From positions 496,001-560,000 of the forward strand of contig NZ_BBIW01000001.1 of NCBI RefSeq assembly GCF_000732325.1: a stretch of 64,000 bases of DNA. Direction: 5' to 3'. Shown in pieces: positions 45,516 to 56,667 of this stretch. The DNA comes from Paenibacillus sp. TCA20. GTDB lineage: Bacteria > Bacillota > Bacilli > Paenibacillales > Paenibacillaceae. Numbering within the stretch: position 1 is the stretch's first letter; each line of letters begins with the position of its first letter. A program made the translations under genes and the position numbers. Below the pieces are notes generated by a model. It saw only the letters and a list, made by a program, of their open reading frames with translations, did no database searches and was not told the DNA's origin.

Positions 45516-46643
45516 CTATACTGTTATTTCGGTCAATTGTGCCTCGAGCTCGAGACATGCCATAACAAATGGAGCTAATCCTTTAGGATCATCCGTACGC
45601 TGCGGTTCTCCAATATAGTATTCGAATGATCCATCCCTATACGGCTGACCGCCGAGACCAGCTACCTTGCATATGCCTTCCAATGCGTAAGAACCATCCT
45701 CACGTGCTTTAACAAACTGGCGAACGATGCCTTCATGTCCCCTCCGAGCAGCCTCCAATGCATGACTGCCCAAATAACCAAGACGGGCCCCTTTTGCGAG
45801 TGCACATACAAACATTGAGGAGGCAGATGCCTCCAAGTAGTTGCCTTCTTGCTCAGGCAGATTCAGTACTTGATACCATAAGCCAGTCGCCTCATCCTGC
45901 ACCTTCATGATTGCCTCACACACCCGATAGAAGATGCCGATGACCTGACCGCGTTTAGGATGATCCAAGGGCAATGTATCGAGCACATCGGTGATCGCCA
46001 TTACATACCAGCCGAGAGCTCTTCCCCAGAAGTGCGGAGAGCAGCCTGTGATTGAATCGGCCCAAGCCTGTTCCCTGCTCTCATCATAAGCATGATATAG
46101 TAATCCAGTTTCTGGATCTCGTGATACTTTTTCCATCAACAAAATTTCATGCACAGCCTCGTCAAACCATTCATTTGCACCAATCAGATCTGCATAAGCC
46201 GTCATCAACGGACAGGCCATATAAACGCCATCCAGCCACATTTGGAACGGATAGATTTTCTTATGCCATAGTCCTCCTTCGGCCGTTCGAGGATGGCTTC
46301 TTAGCTGTGTCATCAGGTGCTCGATCGCGATTCGATATTTCTCATCACCCATTTCTTCGTACAGAGTAAACAATGTCTTCCCTTGATTCAATTGATCCAC
46401 ATTGTATTCATTCAAACGATATGTATGAATATGGCCGTCATCCTGAATGAATAGATCCATGTTCGTTTTGAGGTAATCAAAATAGATAGGGTCGTTCGTC
46501 GCCCGCCATACTCGTTCAACAGCGGTCATCATGCAGCCATTTTCATAATTCCAGTGCAGCCTTGAATGAAAATCCCCCCATGGCAATTGCTTGTTACGGT
46601 TCATGAATGAATCCAATATCCGAGTAGACCAAATGATATCCAA
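45516..46643 (-). CDS. Glycoside hydrolase family 105/88, unsaturated rhamnogalacturonyl hydrolase-like
   Basis: 375 residues, (alpha/alpha)6-barrel. QMWLDGVYMACPLMTAYAD carries the catalytic Asp of the YteR/YesR family; DSITGCSPHFWGRALGWYVMAITDVLDTLP and ASASSMFVCALAKGARLGYL are family signatures. It removes unsaturated galacturonyl units from pectin fragments after lyase action. It has no signal peptide, so it acts in the cytoplasm. Start TTG, ten bases after AGGAGG. No transporter or lyase gene lies beside it. Confidence 0.9.
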   Translation of the reverse strand: MDIIWSTRILDSFMNRNKQLPWGDFHSRLHWNYENGCMMTAVERVWRATNDPIYFDYLKTNMDLFIQDDGHIHTYRLNEYNVDQLNQGKTLFTLYEEMGDEKYRIAIEHLMTQLRSHPRTAEGGLWHKKIYPFQMWLDGVYMACPLMTAYADLIGANEWFDEAVHEILLMEKVSRDPETGLLYHAYDESREQAWADSITGCSPHFWGRALGWYVMAITDVLDTLPLDHPKRGQVIGIFYRVCEAIMKVQDEATGLWYQVLNLPEQEGNYLEASASSMFVCALAKGARLGYLGSHALEAARRGHEGIVRQFVKAREDGSYALEGICKVAGLGGQPYRDGSFEYYIGEPQRTDDPKGLAPFVMACLELEAQLTEITV

Positions 46644-46849: not shown

Positions 46850-47626
46850 TCAGTAGGTCTTGGTCTTTAATTCATCCAAGCTTTTGAAGGTGTAGCCCTG
46901 AGCTCTCGCAGCATCTATGATGGAGCCAAGTGCCTCTGTATTGTCCTTGGATACCGAATGCAGCAGAATTACAGCACCCGGATGCAGCTGCTTCATCACT
47001 TGATCATAGGCATACTGCGAGCCTTTCTGAACATTCGTATCCCAATCCTTATAGGCGATGGACCAGAATACATCGGTGTATCCGAGACCACGACTTACTT
47101 CAAGCGTTCGATCACTAAATATTCCTCGAGGTGGCCGGAGATAAGGGTATTCTTTACCTGTCAGCCTCTTGGTCTCTTCCTTGACTTGGTCCAGCTCGAT
47201 CTTGATTTTTTCATTCGAAGTTATCGTGAGATCGGGATGGCTCCAGGAGTGGTTTCCAACGATGTGTCCTTCTTGACTCATCCGGCGAACTAGGTCCGGC
47301 TTGTCCTTCAGATAATGTCCTGTTACAAAAAAAGCAGCAGGCACCTTCTTTTCTTTCAATACATCCAGGATAGCTGGTGTATACCCATTCTCATACCCAT
47401 TATCGAAGGTCAGATACAATTCCTTCTGCTTCGTATCTCCCATAAAAATAGCACCATGCTTCTCCAGAATATGTTTAAAGCCTTCCTCGTTAATGGAGGC
47501 TGATTGTCCGTCCTTGCTTTTCTTAAACCCAAAATGAAATGCGTCCTTCACGGAGGAAGCATGGACCATCTGTGTCCCTGAAATGAGGATTGCGATTATC
47601 GTGCCCAGGACGAGCAACTTTTTCAT
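46850..47626 (-). CDS. pdaA: Polysaccharide deacetylase, PdaA-like (spore cortex)
   Basis: 258 residues. Signal-type N terminus (KKLLVLGTIIAILISGTQMVHA), then LTFDNGYENGYTPAILDVL (the PdaA form of the TFDDG motif, with Asn for the second Asp), HIVGNHSWSHPD with the metal His residues, YLRPPRGIFSDRTL and PGAVILLHSVSKD. PdaA removes acetyl groups from muramic acid, leading to muramic delta-lactam in the spore cortex. AAAGGGGCAG precedes the ATG. Confidence 0.92.
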   Translation of the reverse strand: MKKLLVLGTIIAILISGTQMVHASSVKDAFHFGFKKSKDGQSASINEEGFKHILEKHGAIFMGDTKQKELYLTFDNGYENGYTPAILDVLKEKKVPAAFFVTGHYLKDKPDLVRRMSQEGHIVGNHSWSHPDLTITSNEKIKIELDQVKEETKRLTGKEYPYLRPPRGIFSDRTLEVSRGLGYTDVFWSIAYKDWDTNVQKGSQYAYDQVMKQLHPGAVILLHSVSKDNTEALGSIIDAARAQGYTFKSLDELKTKTY

Positions 47627-47851: not shown

Positions 47852-48391
47852 TTGTCTATAAATAAGAATCCGAGAGTCATTTGGCTTACAGGCCTATCTG
47901 GATCTGGCAAGACGACACTTGCGTCCCATCTGGAACACGTTTGGAAGAGAGAAGGAATTCCCTGCTACATGCTGGATGGGGATCAAGTGCGCCGCGGTTT
48001 AAACCGGGACCTGGGATTCAGCCCAGAGGACCGCAGAGAAAATTTAAGGCGAATTGCAGAGGTATCTAAGCTATTTCTCAACTCAGGCACCAATGTCATC
48101 GCAGCGTTTATTTCTCCACATGAGCAAGATCGGGAAATGGTGAAATCCATGTTTGAGCCTGGGGAATTTGTAGAGGTGTATGTGAAATGTTCTGTCGAAG
48201 TCTGTGAACAGCGAGATCCGAAGGGATTATACCAAAAAGCAAAACGTGGTGAAATTTCGAATTTCACAGGGATATCAGCTGGATACGACATACCAAACAA
48301 GCCCGATATCATCATAGATACCGAGCTTCAAGATATTGAGCTGTCCGTCTCCTTACTCGTCACCGCGTTACAAAGACATGCCCTAGCTTAA
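47852..48391 (+). CDS. cysC: Adenylyl-sulfate kinase (APS kinase)
   Basis: 179 residues. Walker A is GLSGSGKTTLA; LDGDQVRRGLNRDLGFSPEDRRENLRRIAEVSKLF is the APS-binding region. FISPHEQDREMV, YVKCSVEVCEQRDPKGLYQKAKRGEISNFTGISAGYD and PDIIIDTE follow. It phosphorylates APS to PAPS, the sulfate donor of sulfotransferases. No sulfurylase or PAPS reductase is near. It converges on the lasso operon, whose first gene is a sulfotransferase. Start TTG after AAGGAGAGAAGG. TATAAT at 47787-47792 may be its -10 box. Confidence 0.94.
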   Translation: MSINKNPRVIWLTGLSGSGKTTLASHLEHVWKREGIPCYMLDGDQVRRGLNRDLGFSPEDRRENLRRIAEVSKLFLNSGTNVIAAFISPHEQDREMVKSMFEPGEFVEVYVKCSVEVCEQRDPKGLYQKAKRGEISNFTGISAGYDIPNKPDIIIDTELQDIELSVSLLVTALQRHALA

Positions 48392-48503: not shown

Positions 48504-50243
48504 TCATATGCTCCTTGCTGCATTACTTTGCCCCCTCCCTTCAAGCACGATGACTTGATCAGCGCCTTGAATAGTAGACAAGCGGTGTGCAATGACGACG
48601 ATCGTCATCCGCCCCTGCAACGCCTTAAGTGCTTCTTGTATAGTGAGTTCATTCTCGCCATCCAGTGCGCTGGTTGCTTCATCTAATATGAGAATGGCCG
48701 GCTTACGTAATATCGCTCTTGCGAGTACAATCCGCTGTCTCTCCCCTCCAGATAATCGGACTCCCCGATCACCGATGATGGTATCCAGTCCTTGCGGCAA
48801 ATCAACAACAAAATGGGCGGACGCAAATCGCAGCGCTTCCCACAGCTCCTCCTCGGTAGCATCACGCTTAACCAGAACAAGATTGTCCCGTATCGATGTA
48901 TGGAACAAGAAAGGCTCTTGCGATACATAACTGATCGACTGACGCCAGGCTTGCAGCCGTGATGCCTCCAAAGGAGCTTTATCCAAGAGAATGGTCCCTT
49001 TTGTCGGCTGAATTAACCCCATGAGCAGATCAATAAACGTACTTTTACCTGCACCTGAGCGTCCCACAATTGCCGTCATACCGTTAACGGGAATAAAGGT
49101 ATTAACGTGCTGCAGCGCATCTTGGGTTTGTCCTGGATATCGATAGGATATATCCTCACAGCGAATCCCTGTCTTCAAAGCAATCGGTTTGATATCCGTA
49201 CCGCTCATCGGAGTATTTAGGCTGCCGGATTCCAAAGCCTGCTCACATTCTTGTTGCAGCTGTAACAAGCTCCGGAAAGCAGGGATCAGCGAACCGATAT
49301 ACTCCAGACTGGTTTGGATCATGGAGAACCGGGGCCATAATCTCGAGAATATAACAATCATCAACAGCAAATGCTCAGCAGGATAAGAAAACAGGTTAAG
49401 AGATGCATACACAAACAAGGCAATAATAACAGCCGCAGCGATTCGATAAATCAGCTGTGTAGTTGAATTAAGACGAATATAAGACACCATGTTGTGCTCC
49501 ATTCGCTTGCACAAGGCTTTAAAGCCTGTTTCATGCTGCTGCTCCAGATTGTTGCTCTTAATATCCTTCATCCCGTTAAAATGCTCGACGATCTCAGACA
49601 TATATTGTTGAGACAGATCAGATGTGTGATCCCCCAAAGCCTTGGCTTTGCGTATAAACGGCCGGAGAACCATAAACAGAATGGCACCAAAGCCTAATAC
49701 CATCAGAGTCAATTCGGCAGACAGCCAAAAGGCAAATCCAATCTGAATGACTGTAAATATGACCGATGCCGTAAGCTGAATTAAGACGTTCGTTCCTTGG
49801 CTCACACGCGCCAGCTCTGAGGTGAGGATATGGTTAAAGTCTGATTTTTTCTTCGTTAAAAAAAGCTCCCATTTGGAATAAATTAATAGTCTATACGTTT
49901 CATAACGCAAGGTATGTATAAAGTTTTGCTGGATTTGAGAGCTGAGAATGTTCTGATTACGCTGCATTAACGCCTGAAACGTCAAAATAACCACAAAAAT
50001 GAGAAGTACAAGTAAAAGCTGTGATTGCTGCGGTACAAACCCAAGAAGACCGGTGACCCATTCGAGCGGGACTGAATCATTCACGCCAGAGTCCAACACA
50101 TTAATTGCAGACAGCATGGGAACCAGTAAGTAGATTCCAAACCCTTCCAATATACTGATGATGACCATAAACAAAATGCTGGCGATCAGCTTGGGACCTG
50201 TAATAGAGTACAGCTTCTTTAGATAGGTTCGAAGTTCAATCAT
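48504..50243 (-). CDS. Lasso cluster ABC exporter (ATPase-permease, D protein)
   Basis: 579 residues: a permease part with six membrane segments (about 1-310) and an ATPase part with VGRSGAGKSTFIDLLMG, LSGGERQRIVLARAILRKPAILILDEATSALDG and the H-loop VIAHRLST. This is the half-transporter type that exports mature lasso peptides and gives self-immunity. The frame opens at 50360, but AAAGGGAG is correctly placed for the ATG at 50243, which overlaps the end of the nucleotidyltransferase gene by eight bases. Last gene of the operon. Confidence 0.9.
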   Translation of the reverse strand: MIELRTYLKKLYSITGPKLIASILFMVIISILEGFGIYLLVPMLSAINVLDSGVNDSVPLEWVTGLLGFVPQQSQLLLVLLIFVVILTFQALMQRNQNILSSQIQQNFIHTLRYETYRLLIYSKWELFLTKKKSDFNHILTSELARVSQGTNVLIQLTASVIFTVIQIGFAFWLSAELTLMVLGFGAILFMVLRPFIRKAKALGDHTSDLSQQYMSEIVEHFNGMKDIKSNNLEQQHETGFKALCKRMEHNMVSYIRLNSTTQLIYRIAAAVIIALFVYASLNLFSYPAEHLLLMIVIFSRLWPRFSMIQTSLEYIGSLIPAFRSLLQLQQECEQALESGSLNTPMSGTDIKPIALKTGIRCEDISYRYPGQTQDALQHVNTFIPVNGMTAIVGRSGAGKSTFIDLLMGLIQPTKGTILLDKAPLEASRLQAWRQSISYVSQEPFLFHTSIRDNLVLVKRDATEEELWEALRFASAHFVVDLPQGLDTIIGDRGVRLSGGERQRIVLARAILRKPAILILDEATSALDGENELTIQEALKALQGRMTIVVIAHRLSTIQGADQVIVLEGRGQSNAARSI

Positions 50244-51414
50244 ATTCATGTCTCCCTTTAAGAACCATGCGCTGCCTGATTCTGCGCCACATCCATAGGA
50301 AAGGGCGTAAAGGTATGTATAGAAAATGCAGCTTGCGGGGCAGTGGCAATAATTCAGCATCCATCGGACCTGGATACAGCCTTCCTAGCAGCATGATCAT
50401 TCGTCGTTTCGGAGATTTGATCTGTTTCAGATAATTTATCCCTGTTTCTTTATCAGGTTCTTCAAGGATCAAATTTAATGCATACTCCGTTAATTTTATT
50501 GTATGGGCATGCTCCACTAATTCTTTCATTTTACTTGTAAGCGGGGCTCTCAATAATCTCGAACACAACAGGTAAGCCTGCCCTGCATAGAATTCACTTT
50601 CATGCAGTTCCGCATAGTATTCAAAATTATGAATCGTATTGTTCTTACGTAATATGAGATCGATATCCATTAACCAACGAAGTCTAAACCATCCATGTCT
50701 TGCTCCATGACTGACGAGATACATGAATAGATCTTCTTTGCCTAGGTAAGACACCTCGTGTTCAACTATAGTTATCGTTTGTCTTCTATTCCACAATTCT
50801 TGAAAAGAAATGTCTTTTGCTCCGGATGGATTAAGCTTCCAATGAACCTCAATTTGCGTTTTATGCTCCGGATGAAACAGAGAGATATGATGGTCCTTCC
50901 ATTTCCAGCCTTCCATAATAAATGGGGTATCATACTTTTTAATATAACCCGCTTTTTCTAGAACATTTAGGGAGGCATCAACATCACTAATGTTGACCAG
51001 TAAATCAAGATCCTTGGAAGTTCGATGCGCAAGATCTCCATATAATTCGAAAGCAAGAATCGGCCCTTTTAACATAATAACCTTAATATTTTGTTGTTCC
51101 AGGACTGAGGTGACTCGCTCCATTTCAGCCGTCAGTCTCATCATATAGAAAGTGTTATGCGTCACTGCCTTCTGAATTTGATCCATTACATCCAATGGGA
51201 CTACTTCGTGGAATGATTGTAATCGTGCATAAATAAGCGGGTAAATGCGGTGGTGGTAAATTAATCTATTGAATTCCTTCCAATCTATTGTTTCAACCTC
51301 ATATTTTTGTCGAATTTCCTGTTCAGTTACACGATCTTCTGCTAGTAAATCACACATGAATTGAAATTCAATGGATTCTCCGACAAATATATTATTATTT
51401 TGAATACTCATCAT
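50236..51414 (-). CDS. Lasso cluster nucleotidyltransferase-family protein
   Basis: 392 residues. VIMLKGPILAFELYGDLAHRTSKDLDLLV (about 113-140) carries the G...R-x-S-x-D-x-D site of the NTP_transf_5 family. The C-terminal half is helical (LFMYLVSHGARHGWFRLRWLMDIDLILRK). Such genes are frequent in Bacillus/Paenibacillus lasso clusters; for pseudomycoidin the homologue was reported to add hexoses to the phosphorylated C-terminal Ser. I set the start at the first ATG of the ATG-ATG pair, eight bases after AGAGG; an in-frame GTG lies at 51423. It overlaps the exporter gene. Confidence 0.88.
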   Translation of the reverse strand: MMSIQNNNIFVGESIEFQFMCDLLAEDRVTEQEIRQKYEVETIDWKEFNRLIYHHRIYPLIYARLQSFHEVVPLDVMDQIQKAVTHNTFYMMRLTAEMERVTSVLEQQNIKVIMLKGPILAFELYGDLAHRTSKDLDLLVNISDVDASLNVLEKAGYIKKYDTPFIMEGWKWKDHHISLFHPEHKTQIEVHWKLNPSGAKDISFQELWNRRQTITIVEHEVSYLGKEDLFMYLVSHGARHGWFRLRWLMDIDLILRKNNTIHNFEYYAELHESEFYAGQAYLLCSRLLRAPLTSKMKELVEHAHTIKLTEYALNLILEEPDKETGINYLKQIKSPKRRMIMLLGRLYPGPMDAELLPLPRKLHFLYIPLRPFLWMWRRIRQRMVLKGRHEYD

Positions 51415-51442
51415 TTTGCTCACCCTCTGACTTCACTCTGGT

Positions 51443-51901
51443 TCAAGCATTTTTGTTAGAGAACATCCCTACAACGGTATATTTCTCGATTTCGTCTGCT
51501 CCAGCTACATACATGGGACCACTACGAAGCCAAGCATGCGCACTCATTCCTCCGCTTTCGTTACGTGCAACACCTAGATAAAGCGTACTTTGAATATTGC
51601 GTCTTTTCAGCATCTTCATCCCGGCAATACTAGTGACAAGGCATTCACTCCTCCAAGGAGTATGTTTAGCCGTCATATCAATGGCCTTGGCAACTTTCAG
51701 TCTAATGGGATCGAGATCAGAGCTCCGATCATATGATGTTTCTTCATTCTCACAATCTAACATCTGAGCAACTTTTGAGAAAGGGCGCAGGTTAAGTACT
51801 CGTGCATAGGCCAAATAAAAGAAAGCCTCTATGATCAGTTTTCTCATGGCAGGCTTTTGTTTGGTGAAAGAGCGAAGTAATAAAGTTTTGCTCCACATCA
51901 C
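51443..51901 (-). CDS. Lasso peptide leader peptidase B2 (transglutaminase-like)
   Basis: 152 residues matching the McjB C-terminal domain. RSECLVTSIAGMKMLKRRNI has the catalytic Cys (about 87), MSAHAWLRSG the His (about 122), and VAGADEIEKYTVVGMF the Asp (about 136). It cuts the leader from the precursor with help from B1. The start is a GTG two bases after the B1 stop (an ATG follows directly); GAGGAT serves as ribosome site, so the two are coupled. Confidence 0.92.
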   Translation of the reverse strand: MMWSKTLLLRSFTKQKPAMRKLIIEAFFYLAYARVLNLRPFSKVAQMLDCENEETSYDRSSDLDPIRLKVAKAIDMTAKHTPWRSECLVTSIAGMKMLKRRNIQSTLYLGVARNESGGMSAHAWLRSGPMYVAGADEIEKYTVVGMFSNKNA

Positions 51902-51902
51902 A

Positions 51903-52196
51903 TTAATCCTCTTTTTGTTTAATTAATCCTTCCTTAAGGAGGGAATTCATAAATAGCTCTACCTGTTGACCACATGTAGATTGATCGATTGAATATTCAG
52001 CAGATAAGATATTAACAATTTCTGAAATCGTGTTGCCATCAGCAAGTAGTTCCCAGATTCGCCCACCTGTACGGCCCAAGTTATAATACTTTCCTGACTG
52101 AATTGACATCATCACTTTATCACCATTCATGTCACTGACAACATGTCCTTCTTGCTGAATATAGTGGACATCTTGTAATATCGTTTCTAATTTCAT
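51903..52196 (-). CDS. Lasso peptide B1 protein (PqqD-like leader recognition)
   Basis: 97 residues with the PqqD fold: MMSIQSGKYYNLGRTGGRIWELLADGNTISEIVNILSAEYSI and a helical C terminus. B1 binds the precursor leader and delivers it to B2. Its ATG overlaps the kinase stop (ATGA). Confidence 0.92.
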   Translation of the reverse strand: MKLETILQDVHYIQQEGHVVSDMNGDKVMMSIQSGKYYNLGRTGGRIWELLADGNTISEIVNILSAEYSIDQSTCGQQVELFMNSLLKEGLIKQKED

Positions 52197-53140
52197 TTGG
52201 TTACCCTCACTCCTCTTTCAATGGCTTGCAGCACAGTATTCACAAGTTGCTCAATAGTTATAGAATTCTTCGGACGATGCAGTCGACACAGATCTACTTG
52301 ACTTGCAATCTCTGTCACCTTGTCAAAATGCCACTGCATATTCTGTATTCTTTTGACAAGTGGCAACCGATAAGTATGTGCTTGGAGCAACTGAATACCC
52401 TCAAGCGTAGATACTGAATTCAACTGTACTTCTGGCTGATGATCTGAGGCAATAAGCTCAAATACACCTGCTAACGGTATCCTAGCTTGAGCTTGACTAA
52501 AATCCTTTTTCCTCGGAACGGCATACTTCCATTCGTCCTTAATTACACTAAGTCCATCAGAACTCATAGTTAGCAGATCAAGACTAAATGCATTTAGTTT
52601 TTGCTGGGGATAAGCCGGAGAAACCATAGGTACAGATTGATTCGTGCTGACAGCAATGACATCGTCACTAATAAGTCTGTAGCCTCTATTTACAAAGGCC
52701 GCAGATAAAGTTGATTTGCCTGCACCTGATTCCCCAACAAAAGCAAATGCATATCCATTCATAGCTACTGCGCTACCATGTAAAGGTAATATATTTCGCT
52801 GCAGCAGCAATACGCCCATACACGTTCCTAGCAAATACAGCCTAACTCTGGATAAATTACAGCCATTATGCGGCATTACCGTCACAGTTCTGCCTTGTAC
52901 GACATGAAATGTTCCTACTTCAGGTATTTGAAATAAAAATTGATCATCCCTGCTTTGAAAATTCTGCTCAGCCAACCCCCAGTCAAAGCAGACAGAGGAC
53001 AAATCTCCAAACTGAATGGTTACATCAATATTCGTCTCTTCTGCAACAATTATAGCTGTCAATTCAGGAAGAGGCATTTCACTTTGAATGGTTAATCCAA
53101 AAGCTAAATAGGCGGATACAGCTGATTTATCTTGTGACAT
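52193..53140 (-). CDS. Lasso cluster HPr-kinase-like enzyme (PadeK type)
   Basis: 315 residues. The C-terminal domain resembles HPr kinase: LPLHGSAVAMNGYAFAFVGESGAGKSTL (Walker A, about 136-144) with a conserved His (121) and LISDDV (Asp 159-160). The N-terminal part (1-115) is beta-rich. PadeK of paeninodin phosphorylates the C-terminal Ser of the precursor; the precursor here also ends in Ser. GGGAGGATTAC precedes the ATG. Confidence 0.9.
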   Translation of the reverse strand: MSQDKSAVSAYLAFGLTIQSEMPLPELTAIIVAEETNIDVTIQFGDLSSVCFDWGLAEQNFQSRDDQFLFQIPEVGTFHVVQGRTVTVMPHNGCNLSRVRLYLLGTCMGVLLLQRNILPLHGSAVAMNGYAFAFVGESGAGKSTLSAAFVNRGYRLISDDVIAVSTNQSVPMVSPAYPQQKLNAFSLDLLTMSSDGLSVIKDEWKYAVPRKKDFSQAQARIPLAGVFELIASDHQPEVQLNSVSTLEGIQLLQAHTYRLPLVKRIQNMQWHFDKVTEIASQVDLCRLHRPKNSITIEQLVNTVLQAIERGVRVTK

Positions 53141-53184
53141 GTAATCCTCCCAGCTGGTCTATTTAAAAGCTATTTTATATCGGT

Positions 53185-53235
53185 TTACAGCTATCAGCGA
53201 AAGCAGATATAGATCGTTTTCACTGATAGCTGTAA
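53185..53235. other. Strong hairpin between the precursor and kinase genes
   Basis: A perfect 13-bp inverted repeat (53185-53197 with 53223-53235), continuing with four pairs after one mismatch. It lies 42 bp after the precursor stop. No T run follows on the minus strand, so a processing, stabilising or partial-stop element that raises precursor mRNA over the downstream enzymes is likelier than a full terminator (inference). Confidence 0.7.
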
Positions 53236-53277
53236 GCTGTCAGTATGCATAAGTAAAAATGACTCCATTACTTCTTA

Positions 53278-53412
53278 TTAGCTAGGATCATACAAATCCG
53301 CATCATGCTCGGAGATCCAGTCAATTTGTCTGAATCCAGTTCCTTGCTTAGTCTCACTCATTTCAAGAACTTCAAGGCTAGGTATTTGCCATTCCATTTT
53401 GTTGTTTTGCAT
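53278..53412 (-). CDS. Lasso peptide precursor (A), paeninodin family
   Basis: A 44-residue peptide. AGGAGG lies eight bases before the ATG. The leader is MQNNKMEWQIPSLEVLEMSE then TK, with the W..P...VL pattern bound by B1 and Thr at -2. The predicted core is residues 23-44: QGTGFRQID forms a nine-residue ring closed by Asp9, and the tail is WISEHDADLYDPS with Tyr19 and a C-terminal Ser22. The HDADLYDPS-type tail is shared with other Paenibacillus precursors of this family. Residue 1 is Gln, where Gly or Ala is usual. It sits between cyclase and kinase genes. Confidence 0.9.
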   Translation of the reverse strand: MQNNKMEWQIPSLEVLEMSETKQGTGFRQIDWISEHDADLYDPS

Positions 53413-53464
53413 TCCTCTCACCTCCTTTCAATAATTTCAGATATACAACTCAATTTAGAGGCCG

Positions 53465-55393
53465 TTAGAATTGCTGCAAAAAACGATAAACGATCAGGCT
53501 GTGCATCAGCATCCGAACCTCAGGATCCCATGCAAGTTCTAAACGAGGATTATCCAGCTTAGTAATTCCTTTATGAATCTGGTCTATATTAAGGTAGTCT
53601 GAAATTGAAGTATCATTAGTCATTCGTTTTAGCTCGGATACCCAGATGTCCCATTCCGGCTTAATTCTATAAATCCAATCCGCTGGTTGAACGCCTCGTA
53701 TAGTCTGATTAAGTCTCACGTTATCCGGTAAGTAATTCACTGTGGAGCGACGCAGCAGAGCGCGATCTCGTCCTTTTTGAACATATTGCTCTAGTGGAAC
53801 AGATAAACAGTATCGAACCACCCTTGGATCATTGGTTGGATCACGTTCAATAAGCCCGTATCGCATAGATAGTTTCGTTGCCATTGCCCCATTCTTGTTA
53901 GCCACGGCCAAGTTATTTATATTTTCTTTTCGTGCAGTTAATGCGTTAATATAAACCGTTTGTTTATTTACAACGTATGGCTTCATTTGCCGATGCATTT
54001 CCATTCTTCGAGCAAAATCCGGGTGGATAAGTTCAGGCACTTCGACTGTTCCTCCCACAGCCGCACGCTGCCTGCGAAGCATGGGAAAAGCCTTTCTTCC
54101 GATAATCGGCAGCAGCTTGCCTCGCGGTACTTCGGCCAGACGGCTGTATTGCTGAACTTCCCTTGCGAGGTGAACCAGCTTGCCTCTTCGCAATAAATGA
54201 GCATAGTAGTCTAACGCCGGCCCCCATGAAATTGTGAAGTTTCCCATGGCCCCTGTAAGCATTACCCCTACTCCCTGCTCCTGTGCACGTTCATAAAACC
54301 CCCGAATCCAGAATGAGTTTTCAAAAAATTTGTAGGGGGTCTCCATGATGTCCAGCCAGTCATTCACTTCCGTCAGCGGACTCTTGCCAGCAAAATTCAT
54401 ATAGTTCTCTCGAATATTCCCTACAAAATTCACTGTGGATTGAATGTAAGGCGTTTCATCTGCAATTAACCGGCTGGACGTCCAATCCTCGAAGCCTGAT
54501 ACAGGTACGTAGCTGTAGGCATGAAGCTCCTTGCCATTCAATTTCAGCATCGGTGAGGCGAAGCTCGCAACCGTTCCTGAATCAAGTCCACCACTGAGGG
54601 CTGTGCCTACTTGCTTATATGTTCTGACTCTTGCCCGAACAGCCTGGTCGAATACATCTCGGAAGGCCTCTTCATATTCTTCATCCGACTTCAGATACAG
54701 CGGCTCTATTTCTTCAAAATTGCTGTATTGACGTAATTCGACTCCCTGCCTGCCTACCTTAATCCAATGTGCAGCCGGAATCTGTCTGACATTACGATAC
54801 GCAGTGGCGTGAACGTCATAGGATTCATACATTCCGCGGATCGCCAGAAATTCGGCCAGCCATTGCTCGTTTAACTCTTTGTTAAAATAAGGCATATGGA
54901 AGAGCGGATTCATCGAGCTGCAGAACGCAAAATGCACACCATCATCTATATAGTAAAAGGACCTGCGGCCTGACTCATCACGTGCACCAAACAATTGATC
55001 CTTCCTTGAATCCCAAATCATAAAGACATAATCACCTAATAAATGCTTAGGAGCATCTTCTCCCCACTTCACATAAGCTTCCAGTATCAATTGGCTGTCG
55101 GAAATCGTGATTCGCTCTTTAAGAGGGATCTGCAGCTTGTCAAACAGCTCACTGCGATTATCAATAATCGCATCCGCAGTGATGGTGATATCCCGCCTTT
55201 CATCGTAGAGGGGAAGCACTTCATGGACGGACTCCGGGGTCACCCACTGCATATGACAGCTAAAAAAAACATGAGCATCACTCCATGAGTGAATGCGATC
55301 CCACTTATATTTCGTCAAGTAAGCTCCTGCGGGGTCCATATCTTCAGGCATAATCGGCTCTCTGCGGGAAAAGCATCCCATGATGGCACTCAT
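53465..55393 (-). CDS. Lasso cyclase C (asparagine synthetase-like)
   Basis: 642 residues. An N-terminal glutaminase-like domain lacks the Cys2 nucleophile (it starts MSAIMGCF); the synthetase domain has the ATP/PPi loop ALSGGLDSGTVASFA (267-273) and the IDDGVHFAFCSSMNPLF and GRRSFYYID segments. It activates the Asp9 side chain with ATP and joins it to the amine of residue 1. GGGAGGGGAAATC precedes the ATG, which overlaps the sulfotransferase stop (ATGA). Confidence 0.93.
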   Translation of the reverse strand: MSAIMGCFSRREPIMPEDMDPAGAYLTKYKWDRIHSWSDAHVFFSCHMQWVTPESVHEVLPLYDERRDITITADAIIDNRSELFDKLQIPLKERITISDSQLILEAYVKWGEDAPKHLLGDYVFMIWDSRKDQLFGARDESGRRSFYYIDDGVHFAFCSSMNPLFHMPYFNKELNEQWLAEFLAIRGMYESYDVHATAYRNVRQIPAAHWIKVGRQGVELRQYSNFEEIEPLYLKSDEEYEEAFRDVFDQAVRARVRTYKQVGTALSGGLDSGTVASFASPMLKLNGKELHAYSYVPVSGFEDWTSSRLIADETPYIQSTVNFVGNIRENYMNFAGKSPLTEVNDWLDIMETPYKFFENSFWIRGFYERAQEQGVGVMLTGAMGNFTISWGPALDYYAHLLRRGKLVHLAREVQQYSRLAEVPRGKLLPIIGRKAFPMLRRQRAAVGGTVEVPELIHPDFARRMEMHRQMKPYVVNKQTVYINALTARKENINNLAVANKNGAMATKLSMRYGLIERDPTNDPRVVRYCLSVPLEQYVQKGRDRALLRRSTVNYLPDNVRLNQTIRGVQPADWIYRIKPEWDIWVSELKRMTNDTSISDYLNIDQIHKGITKLDNPRLELAWDPEVRMLMHSLIVYRFLQQF

Positions 55394-56667
55394 GATTTCC
55401 CCTCCCTTCCAGACAAGTACCCCTGAGCCCAGGATGACAGCCGGTTCCCAAATGGCAGTATGGATTTAATTCGATTAAGCTTGCTTCTAAGCTGGATCAG
55501 CTGCTTCTCCACATGGTTCTTCTCCATATAGCTCTTCGTTAATCGGTTCTCCAGCAGCCTGACTCTCGTTTCAAGCTGAGCAATCTGGATGGAAGCCTGC
55601 CTGTGATCCCTGATCTGATTCACTTGCACAGCCTCTAATTCCAGGTCATCTACAGCTCCAGCAAACTGTGTCCCTGTAAGAATACTACTTGTGCTTAATT
55701 CATAGTCCGGCTTCCATATATAACCGCTCGATTTCAAAAATTGCTGCTCAATCCGCTCCATCGTCGCTTCGTCTGGCGAGAGCTCATACCTCACGCCCGT
55801 TATCCGCTGTGCTTCTTCCAGTTCCTCCGAGTACCCAAGATCATGAAATATTCGTGCTCCCAGCACTCGGCAATAGGCATCCATCTCATCAGGACTAAGC
55901 TGATCCTTCCAAGCGTCAATGGACTGCACATGCGCCTGTGTATGATTCAATAAGAAGGGGTCCCCTGCCCCCATACTGTAAAAAAGATCCGCTTTTTCTT
56001 CACTTACCGGATTACCGTACTGCTCCATTCCTTCACGGTAAGAAATACCGATAAACTCGCACAGCTTGCGTAATTGTTGTTCAGGCTGCCGCACGAGCTC
56101 TTCATATTGAAGCTTGTAGGAGTAGGCCGATTCTCCCTTAAAATACGTAGCGTAGCGGAACAGCCCCGCTGTAAGGTCGACGATCTTCATACCAGGAATA
56201 GGCTGCTTGAGATCCTCAATCAGTGAAAATGGTTCTCCGCTATATGCATTGACCTTCTTGTAGGATGCAGCCACAGATAGCGGGTTACGAAATAATCCAA
56301 TTCTTTGCGATTCGGGAAACACGGCATCCAGAAACTCTAGCAATATATAATATCTTGGCGACTTATCTATGATCTTACGTGCGCCATTCTGATTTAATAA
56401 TCCCTCATATATCTCCACTCCGAAGCTGCGTGCTGCTCTATGAAACAAATCTTCTGAAATAATTCCATTATAGAATTGACGGATAATCCCCGTGCCTCCA
56501 TAGGGGCGTACAGGAGCTAGTTGCAAGTCCGCAAGTGAGAGCAAATACCACATCTCCTGTGCGGCGAACACTTCCTCATGGTTCTGCAGCATCACTGTTG
56601 TAAGTGAGCTTCCGCTTCTGGGCGTACACAGCAAAAATACGAGTTGATCATCACGGAAATGCTTCAA
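55390..56667 (-). CDS. PAPS-dependent sulfotransferase, first gene of the lasso operon
   Basis: 425 residues. FLLCTPRSGSSLTTVML is the 5'-phosphosulfate loop (14-21), DKSPRYY (101-107) a conserved segment, and RIGLFRNPLSVAASY (122-136) the 3'-phosphate motif with Arg127 and Ser. The C terminus adds a predicted coiled coil (about 355-405: QASIQIAQLETRVRLLENRL) and a basic tail, which may dock a partner. It moves sulfate from PAPS to a hydroxyl. Start TTG, eight bases after AAAGGAG. Its end is coupled to the cyclase, which ties it to lasso peptide production. Confidence 0.9.
   Translation of the reverse strand: MKHFRDDQLVFLLCTPRSGSSLTTVMLQNHEEVFAAQEMWYLLSLADLQLAPVRPYGGTGIIRQFYNGIISEDLFHRAARSFGVEIYEGLLNQNGARKIIDKSPRYYILLEFLDAVFPESQRIGLFRNPLSVAASYKKVNAYSGEPFSLIEDLKQPIPGMKIVDLTAGLFRYATYFKGESAYSYKLQYEELVRQPEQQLRKLCEFIGISYREGMEQYGNPVSEEKADLFYSMGAGDPFLLNHTQAHVQSIDAWKDQLSPDEMDAYCRVLGARIFHDLGYSEELEEAQRITGVRYELSPDEATMERIEQQFLKSSGYIWKPDYELSTSSILTGTQFAGAVDDLELEAVQVNQIRDHRQASIQIAQLETRVRLLENRLTKSYMEKNHVEKQLIQLRSKLNRIKSILPFGNRLSSWAQGYLSGREGKS

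Follow-up and report, generated by a model that had tools for sequence, protein, structure and literature searches.

A lasso peptide operon of Paenibacillus sp. TCA20 led by a sulfotransferase gene and flanked by an APS kinase gene, with possible O-sulfation of its product

The operon is located on the minus strand at positions 48504-56667 of the window, the whole stretch of 64,000 nucleotides that was analysed (positions 496,001 to 560,000 of contig NZ_BBIW01000001.1, Paenibacillus sp. TCA20). It consists of eight genes in the order S, C, A, K, B1, B2, N, and D. Gene S (55390..56667) encodes a PAPS-type sulfotransferase of 425 aa (Sulfotransfer_3, PF13469, 7.6e-24) and starts with TTG, preceded by AAAGGAG. 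Gene C (53465..55393) encodes the asparagine synthetase-like lasso macrolactam cyclase (PF00733; NF033535 at 1e-108, below the curated cut-off of that profile). The precursor gene A (53278..53412; product MQNNKMEWQIPSLEVLEMSETKQGTGFRQIDWISEHDADLYDPS) matches the paeninodin family profile NF033524 above its cut-off (7.1e-12). It is followed by the HPr-kinase-like lasso kinase K (52193..53140; PF07475, 1.1e-8), the PqqD-like leader recognition protein B1 (51903..52196; NF033536, 1.7e-34) and the transglutaminase-like leader peptidase B2 (51443..51901; NF033537, 1.4e-25), the last two above the cut-offs. The nucleotidyltransferase-family tailoring enzyme N (50236..51423; PF14907, 2.1e-55) is PsmN-like, and D (48504..50360; PF00005, 6e-32; PF00664, 8.9e-13) is an ABC exporter. 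The true start of D is probably near 50250, shorter than the longest reading frame, and the 125 nt overlap of N and D hinges on the over-long predicted start. The stop codon of S (TGA, 55392-55390) and the start codon of C (ATG, 55393-55391) share the sequence ATGA. The gene order and single strand proposed in the first-pass annotation are thus borne out by strong family matches, and the overlap by direct reading. According to the profile matches, the paeninodin-type gene set is complete, with split B1/B2, cyclase, exporter, and HPr-like kinase. As in pseudomycoidin-type clusters, the kinase and the PF14907 nucleotidyltransferase both lie inside the operon.

The precursor most likely starts at the ATG at 53412 (44 aa), with the good ribosome site AAAGGAGGTGAGAGGA upstream. 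When a longer GTG start is used, the intergenic gaps are 43 nt between C and A and 137 nt between A and K. Features of the paeninodin type are present, namely a WxxP motif in the leader, Thr at position -2, an acidic residue at core position 9, and a C-terminal Ser. Alignment with the cores of relatives gives QGTGFRQIDWISEHDADLYDPS as the predicted core, with a ring between Q1 and D9. Its landmarks are the ring acceptor Asp9, Ser12 three residues past this ring-closing residue, Tyr19, and the C-terminal Ser22. The operon product would therefore be a class II lasso peptide of the paeninodin type, predicted to adopt the threaded lasso form.

The match of S to PF13469 reaches 85.6 bits against a cut-off of 27, and S is the sole Sulfotransfer_3 and the sole Sulfotransfer_1 match in the source genome. 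Across an alignment of 32 sequences with identities down to 44%, the residues R17, E38, R127, and S135 never vary, nor do the motifs PRSG, QEMW (containing Glu38), DKSPRYY, and RNP...S135. Aligned with TPST2, R17, E38, and R127 each face a residue of the corresponding motif, and the spacing between R127 and S135 is the expected one. The essential set of sulfotransferases was described as an Arg, a Ser, and a His or Glu base in between (PMC6637879). This rule fits S, with R17 in the PAPS loop, S135 in the second motif, and E38 between them. We take Glu38 to be the base, equivalent to Glu99 of TPST2; a literature check on this equivalence found no support for it. By sequence, the nearest solved structures are the CurM and olefin-synthase (OLS) sulfotransferases, followed by TPST. 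The CurM and olefin-synthase domains act on the hydroxyl of an acyl chain. They align over approximately the first 250 residues of S (PDB 4gbm, 4gox) and are domains of polyketide synthases, whereas S is a stand-alone protein that has a helical tail. By fold (Foldseek), TPST2 ranks first, with CurM, olefin synthase, and TPST1 close, all at moderate TM-scores. The AlphaFold model of S alone is confident over most of residues 1-320, weak at approximately 220-240, and poor at 328-357. It places a helix at residues 348-403 in the C-terminal extension, which in this model is probably a coiled coil. An identity as the nodulation sulfotransferase NoeE was rejected; NF052394 is the best NCBIfam match, yet it scores 140.3 against a curated cut-off of 500. 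Judged by its conserved residues, S is apparently an active PAPS-dependent sulfotransferase, and the motifs claimed earlier for the coupled gene are upheld by the invariance of R17, E38, R127, and S135.

The survey covered 327 Paenibacillaceae genomes, of which 86 carry S, 191 a related cyclase, and 224 an APS kinase. Beyond this family, a sample of 399 genomes of class Bacilli yielded no match to S, and one scan of genome contigs returned a single near relative. Operons and cores were tabulated from approximately 140 loci. In nearly all loci examined, S opens the lasso operon, and the ATGA overlap with C is present in most loci of the genus of the window. Since the same operon is headed by S in dozens of Paenibacillaceae genomes, as the search suggested by the first-pass annotation revealed, the S-first arrangement is not due to chance. 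In loci L045 and L065 the operon is rearranged to S-K-B2-(N)-D-C-A, with S remaining first. A second, S-free lasso unit (C-A-K, with cores like GGPNGVFPDKNGKGSNNGHAHES) is located between N and the exporter in L075 (10296-15181), and similar units occur in the S clusters L076-L079, L084-L086, L088, and L112. In clusters of the L075 type both units apparently share a single exporter. In the clusters of genus g7 (L082, L087, L150, L153-L156), the precursor gene is multiplied into an array of three or four similar copies; some of these clusters have lost S and still carry the APS kinase and Thr12.

The architecture itself is already known. According to a 2021 review (PMC8498205), which credits the layout to Zhu et al. 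2016, some lasso clusters of Bacillota begin with a putative sulfotransferase gene and have a nucleotidyltransferase gene located between B2 and D. Strain APC 4171 carries a lasso cluster with sulfotransferase and nucleotidyltransferase genes (2024, PMC11381294); the same paper attributes the finding of both genes in P. polymyxa CR1 to Zhu et al. 2016. A 2014 survey also listed a sulfotransferase and an HPr kinase in lasso clusters of anaerobes (PMC4289311). The clusters of P. polymyxa CR1 and APC 4171 share with that of the window a sulfotransferase and a nucleotidyltransferase in a paeninodin-type operon; the core of the window differs in sequence. Paeninodin of Paenibacillus dendritiformis C454 has the same precursor family, the kinase, the B1/B2/C/D set, and the C-terminal Ser, whereas neither a sulfotransferase nor a nucleotidyltransferase is described for it in the literature covered. 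Pseudomycoidin of Bacillus pseudomycoides DSM 12442 shares tailoring by kinase and nucleotidyltransferase, with no sulfation described. The RaxX/RaxST system of Xanthomonas, a tyrosine-sulfated RiPP, has in common the peptide precursor, a TPST-like PAPS sulfotransferase, and ABC export; unlike the product proposed here, RaxX is not a lasso peptide, and the substrate is Tyr. In agreement with the first-pass annotation, no characterised sulfated lasso peptide was found in the searchable literature; nor was a functional test of a cluster sulfotransferase. Of the overall interpretation in that annotation, what stands is the lasso operon and, coupled within it, a sulfotransferase that is apparently active. 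The architecture was not unreported, given the credit to Zhu et al. 2016 in PMC8498205 and PMC11381294. The proposed sulfation of the C-terminal Ser is not supported either: in paeninodin and pseudomycoidin the kinase and the nucleotidyltransferase are known to act on this residue, and S-free clusters conserve it as well. New are the link to donor supply by an APS kinase, the conserved catalytic residues of S, and the acceptor hypothesis for position 12.

The APS kinase gene cysC (47852..48391, plus strand; TIGR00455, 1.1e-67; NF003013, 2.5e-72; both above the cut-offs) lies just outside the operon and is convergent with exporter gene D. Genes for a glycoside hydrolase of family 88 and a polysaccharide deacetylase are located just past it (45516-46643 and 46850-47626, both minus strand). 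An APS kinase gene is found within 20 kb of S in 71/90 substantial S loci of Paenibacillaceae. It lies downstream in 70 of these 71, convergent in 59 and co-directional in 11; being usually on the opposite strand, it is not part of the operon. Among the best 60 APS kinases by similarity to that of the window, 55 are linked to S. Among the 19 loci with no APS kinase nearby is the group classed as P. polymyxa-like from its core sequences; there the gene is not adjacent to the cluster, whereas in the window the only APS kinase of the genome is. P. polymyxa itself is the species from which S was originally described. One S relative of 45% identity (G272, contig C33, 89396-90876) starts approximately 50 bases after an APS kinase gene; no lasso cyclase is among the matches listed for this contig, and it is the sole substantial S so placed, where S and the APS kinase may form a pair away from any lasso cluster. 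The ATP sulfurylase and CysH genes of the source genome sit together on another contig. Its CysH carries CC and CxxC cysteines, which we take to be typical of APS reductases. This suggests that cysteine synthesis may not need PAPS, although some enzymes of the APS-reductase type accept both APS and PAPS. In the RaxX system, PAPS is derived from the products of raxP and raxQ, housekeeping genes that are not cluster-linked (PMC6637879). No paper linking lasso peptides with APS kinase was found in a search that covered the subscription literature thinly, and Zhu et al. 2016 may contain such a link. The APS kinase beside the cluster, which is absent from the first-pass annotation, strengthens the case for sulfation.

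In each of the 81 S clusters whose core could be read, core position 12 is Ser or Thr; the 63 distinct S cores have Thr in 42 and Ser in 21. Two hydroxyl positions never vary in the S clusters, position 12 and that of the C-terminal Ser; at position 19, 96% of these clusters have a hydroxyl residue. Ser/Thr12 occurs in 7/58 S-free clusters, cluster counts that are not a random sample, since cyclase score partly guided the choice of S-free loci, and three loci of g7 were taken for their APS kinase. These seven come from three lineages (g7, G266, and G292, the latter with a degraded S) that are nested among S-bearing relatives and appear to have lost S. Five g7 genomes retain the APS kinase and Thr12 and have no Sulfotransfer_3 gene; a hidden second sulfotransferase was sought between exporter and APS kinase in two g7 loci, and none was present. 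In locus L093 the cyclase falls among S-free clusters of the AGPG type, yet S, the APS kinase, and Thr12 are present. On the cyclase tree the association of position 12 with S gave three agreeing, no opposing, and three tied independent pairs, which is not significant; with so few independent events the test is underpowered. Position 12 is nevertheless the hydroxyl that seems to track S in the sequences compared, and Ser12 of the window core is the acceptor we infer to be most likely, with Tyr19 or the C-terminal phosphosugar as alternatives. A C-terminal Ser is less likely as the sulfate site, since its hydroxyl is needed by the kinase.

The modification may instead be placed on a hexose built by K and N on the C-terminal Ser, giving a sulfated phosphoglycan with no side chain sulfated, which we consider rather unlikely. 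N is present in 78/81 S clusters against 15/58 S-free clusters, and the top NCBIfam match of S is to a nodulation sulfotransferase, though at 140 against 500 bits. Three S clusters without N were considered as an argument against a sugar acceptor; it was dropped because N is present elsewhere in those genomes, so that a sugar acceptor retains some plausibility. The co-variation of S and N on the cyclase tree is, however, not clean, the nearest solved relatives (CurM, olefin-synthase, and tyrosylprotein sulfotransferases) are not sugar enzymes, and the invariant Ser/Thr12 would be left unexplained.

Sulfation of Tyr19, which lies in the acidic stretch DADLYD, would parallel the action of RaxST on RaxX and agrees with the tyrosylprotein sulfotransferases being the best Foldseek matches. 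Tyr19 is found in 51 of the 63 distinct S cores; the others carry Thr, Val, Asp, or Gly, and three contain no Tyr at all, so that the S cores do not share the conserved acceptor Tyr expected for an enzyme of the TPST/RaxST kind. The P. polymyxa-like core of L092 has Val19 together with a full-length S, and an S-free clade with Lys12, which the cyclase tree places among mostly S-bearing branches, retains Thr19. Tyrosine sulfation is accordingly regarded as unlikely.

It is quite improbable that S acts on another substrate, such as a cell-surface polysaccharide, or is merely a co-transcribed bystander. Paeninodin clusters were reported to be frequently near capsule loci (PMC13381572), and lasso clusters look complete after loss of S (L115, g7). 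However, S nearly always leads the lasso operon and is frequently coupled translationally to C, its presence follows a residue of the core peptide, and the sole substantial S relative apart from listed cyclase matches is the one on G272 contig C33. Locus L116 (4436-4747) and L115 have P. polymyxa-like cores with S degraded or missing and the rest of the cluster complete. Repurposing of S as a non-sulfating, chaperone-like partner of the cyclase, which would suit its translational coupling to C and its loss or decay in a few lineages (G266, G292), is very improbable given the catalytic and PAPS-binding residues invariant in relatives down to 44% identical and the APS kinase linkage of S loci.

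Sulfation of the lasso peptide from PAPS is the preferred reading, at Ser/Thr12 or possibly at Tyr19 or a C-terminal sugar. The APS kinase beside the operon would supply PAPS to S, and S would move the sulfate from PAPS onto a hydroxyl of the linear precursor or an intermediate before export by D. Other lasso tailoring enzymes use the linear precursor as substrate (PMC8498205). By analogy, K would phosphorylate the C-terminal Ser, as PadeK does in paeninodin, and N would add a hexose to the phospho-Ser, as in pseudomycoidin; the product may thus be phosphorylated as well as sulfated, and is probably glycosylated. The calculated monoisotopic mass of the predicted lasso is 2531.135; it would rise to 2611.092 with sulfate or 2611.102 with phosphate, a difference of 3.6 ppm, to 2773.154 with phosphate and hexose, and to 2853.111 when sulfate is added to these two. 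The activity of S, the peptide as its substrate, and the site are all deduced from sequence comparison. It is considered likely that the lasso product is sulfated from PAPS at one site or another; the assignment of the sulfate to Ser/Thr12 is tentative, at clearly less than even odds. The complete proposal, that a subclass in Paenibacillaceae with S and a linked APS kinase makes the first sulfated lasso peptides, O-sulfated at Ser/Thr12 and both phosphorylated and glycosylated at the C-terminus, is given a probability of about one in three.

With the linked APS kinase and the residue at position 12, a long-standing annotation becomes experimentally testable. If sulfation is true, heterologous expression of such clusters without a PAPS source could overlook the modification. 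The Paenibacillaceae would then possess a widespread subclass of lasso peptides with a dedicated sulfation module acting on aliphatic Ser/Thr.
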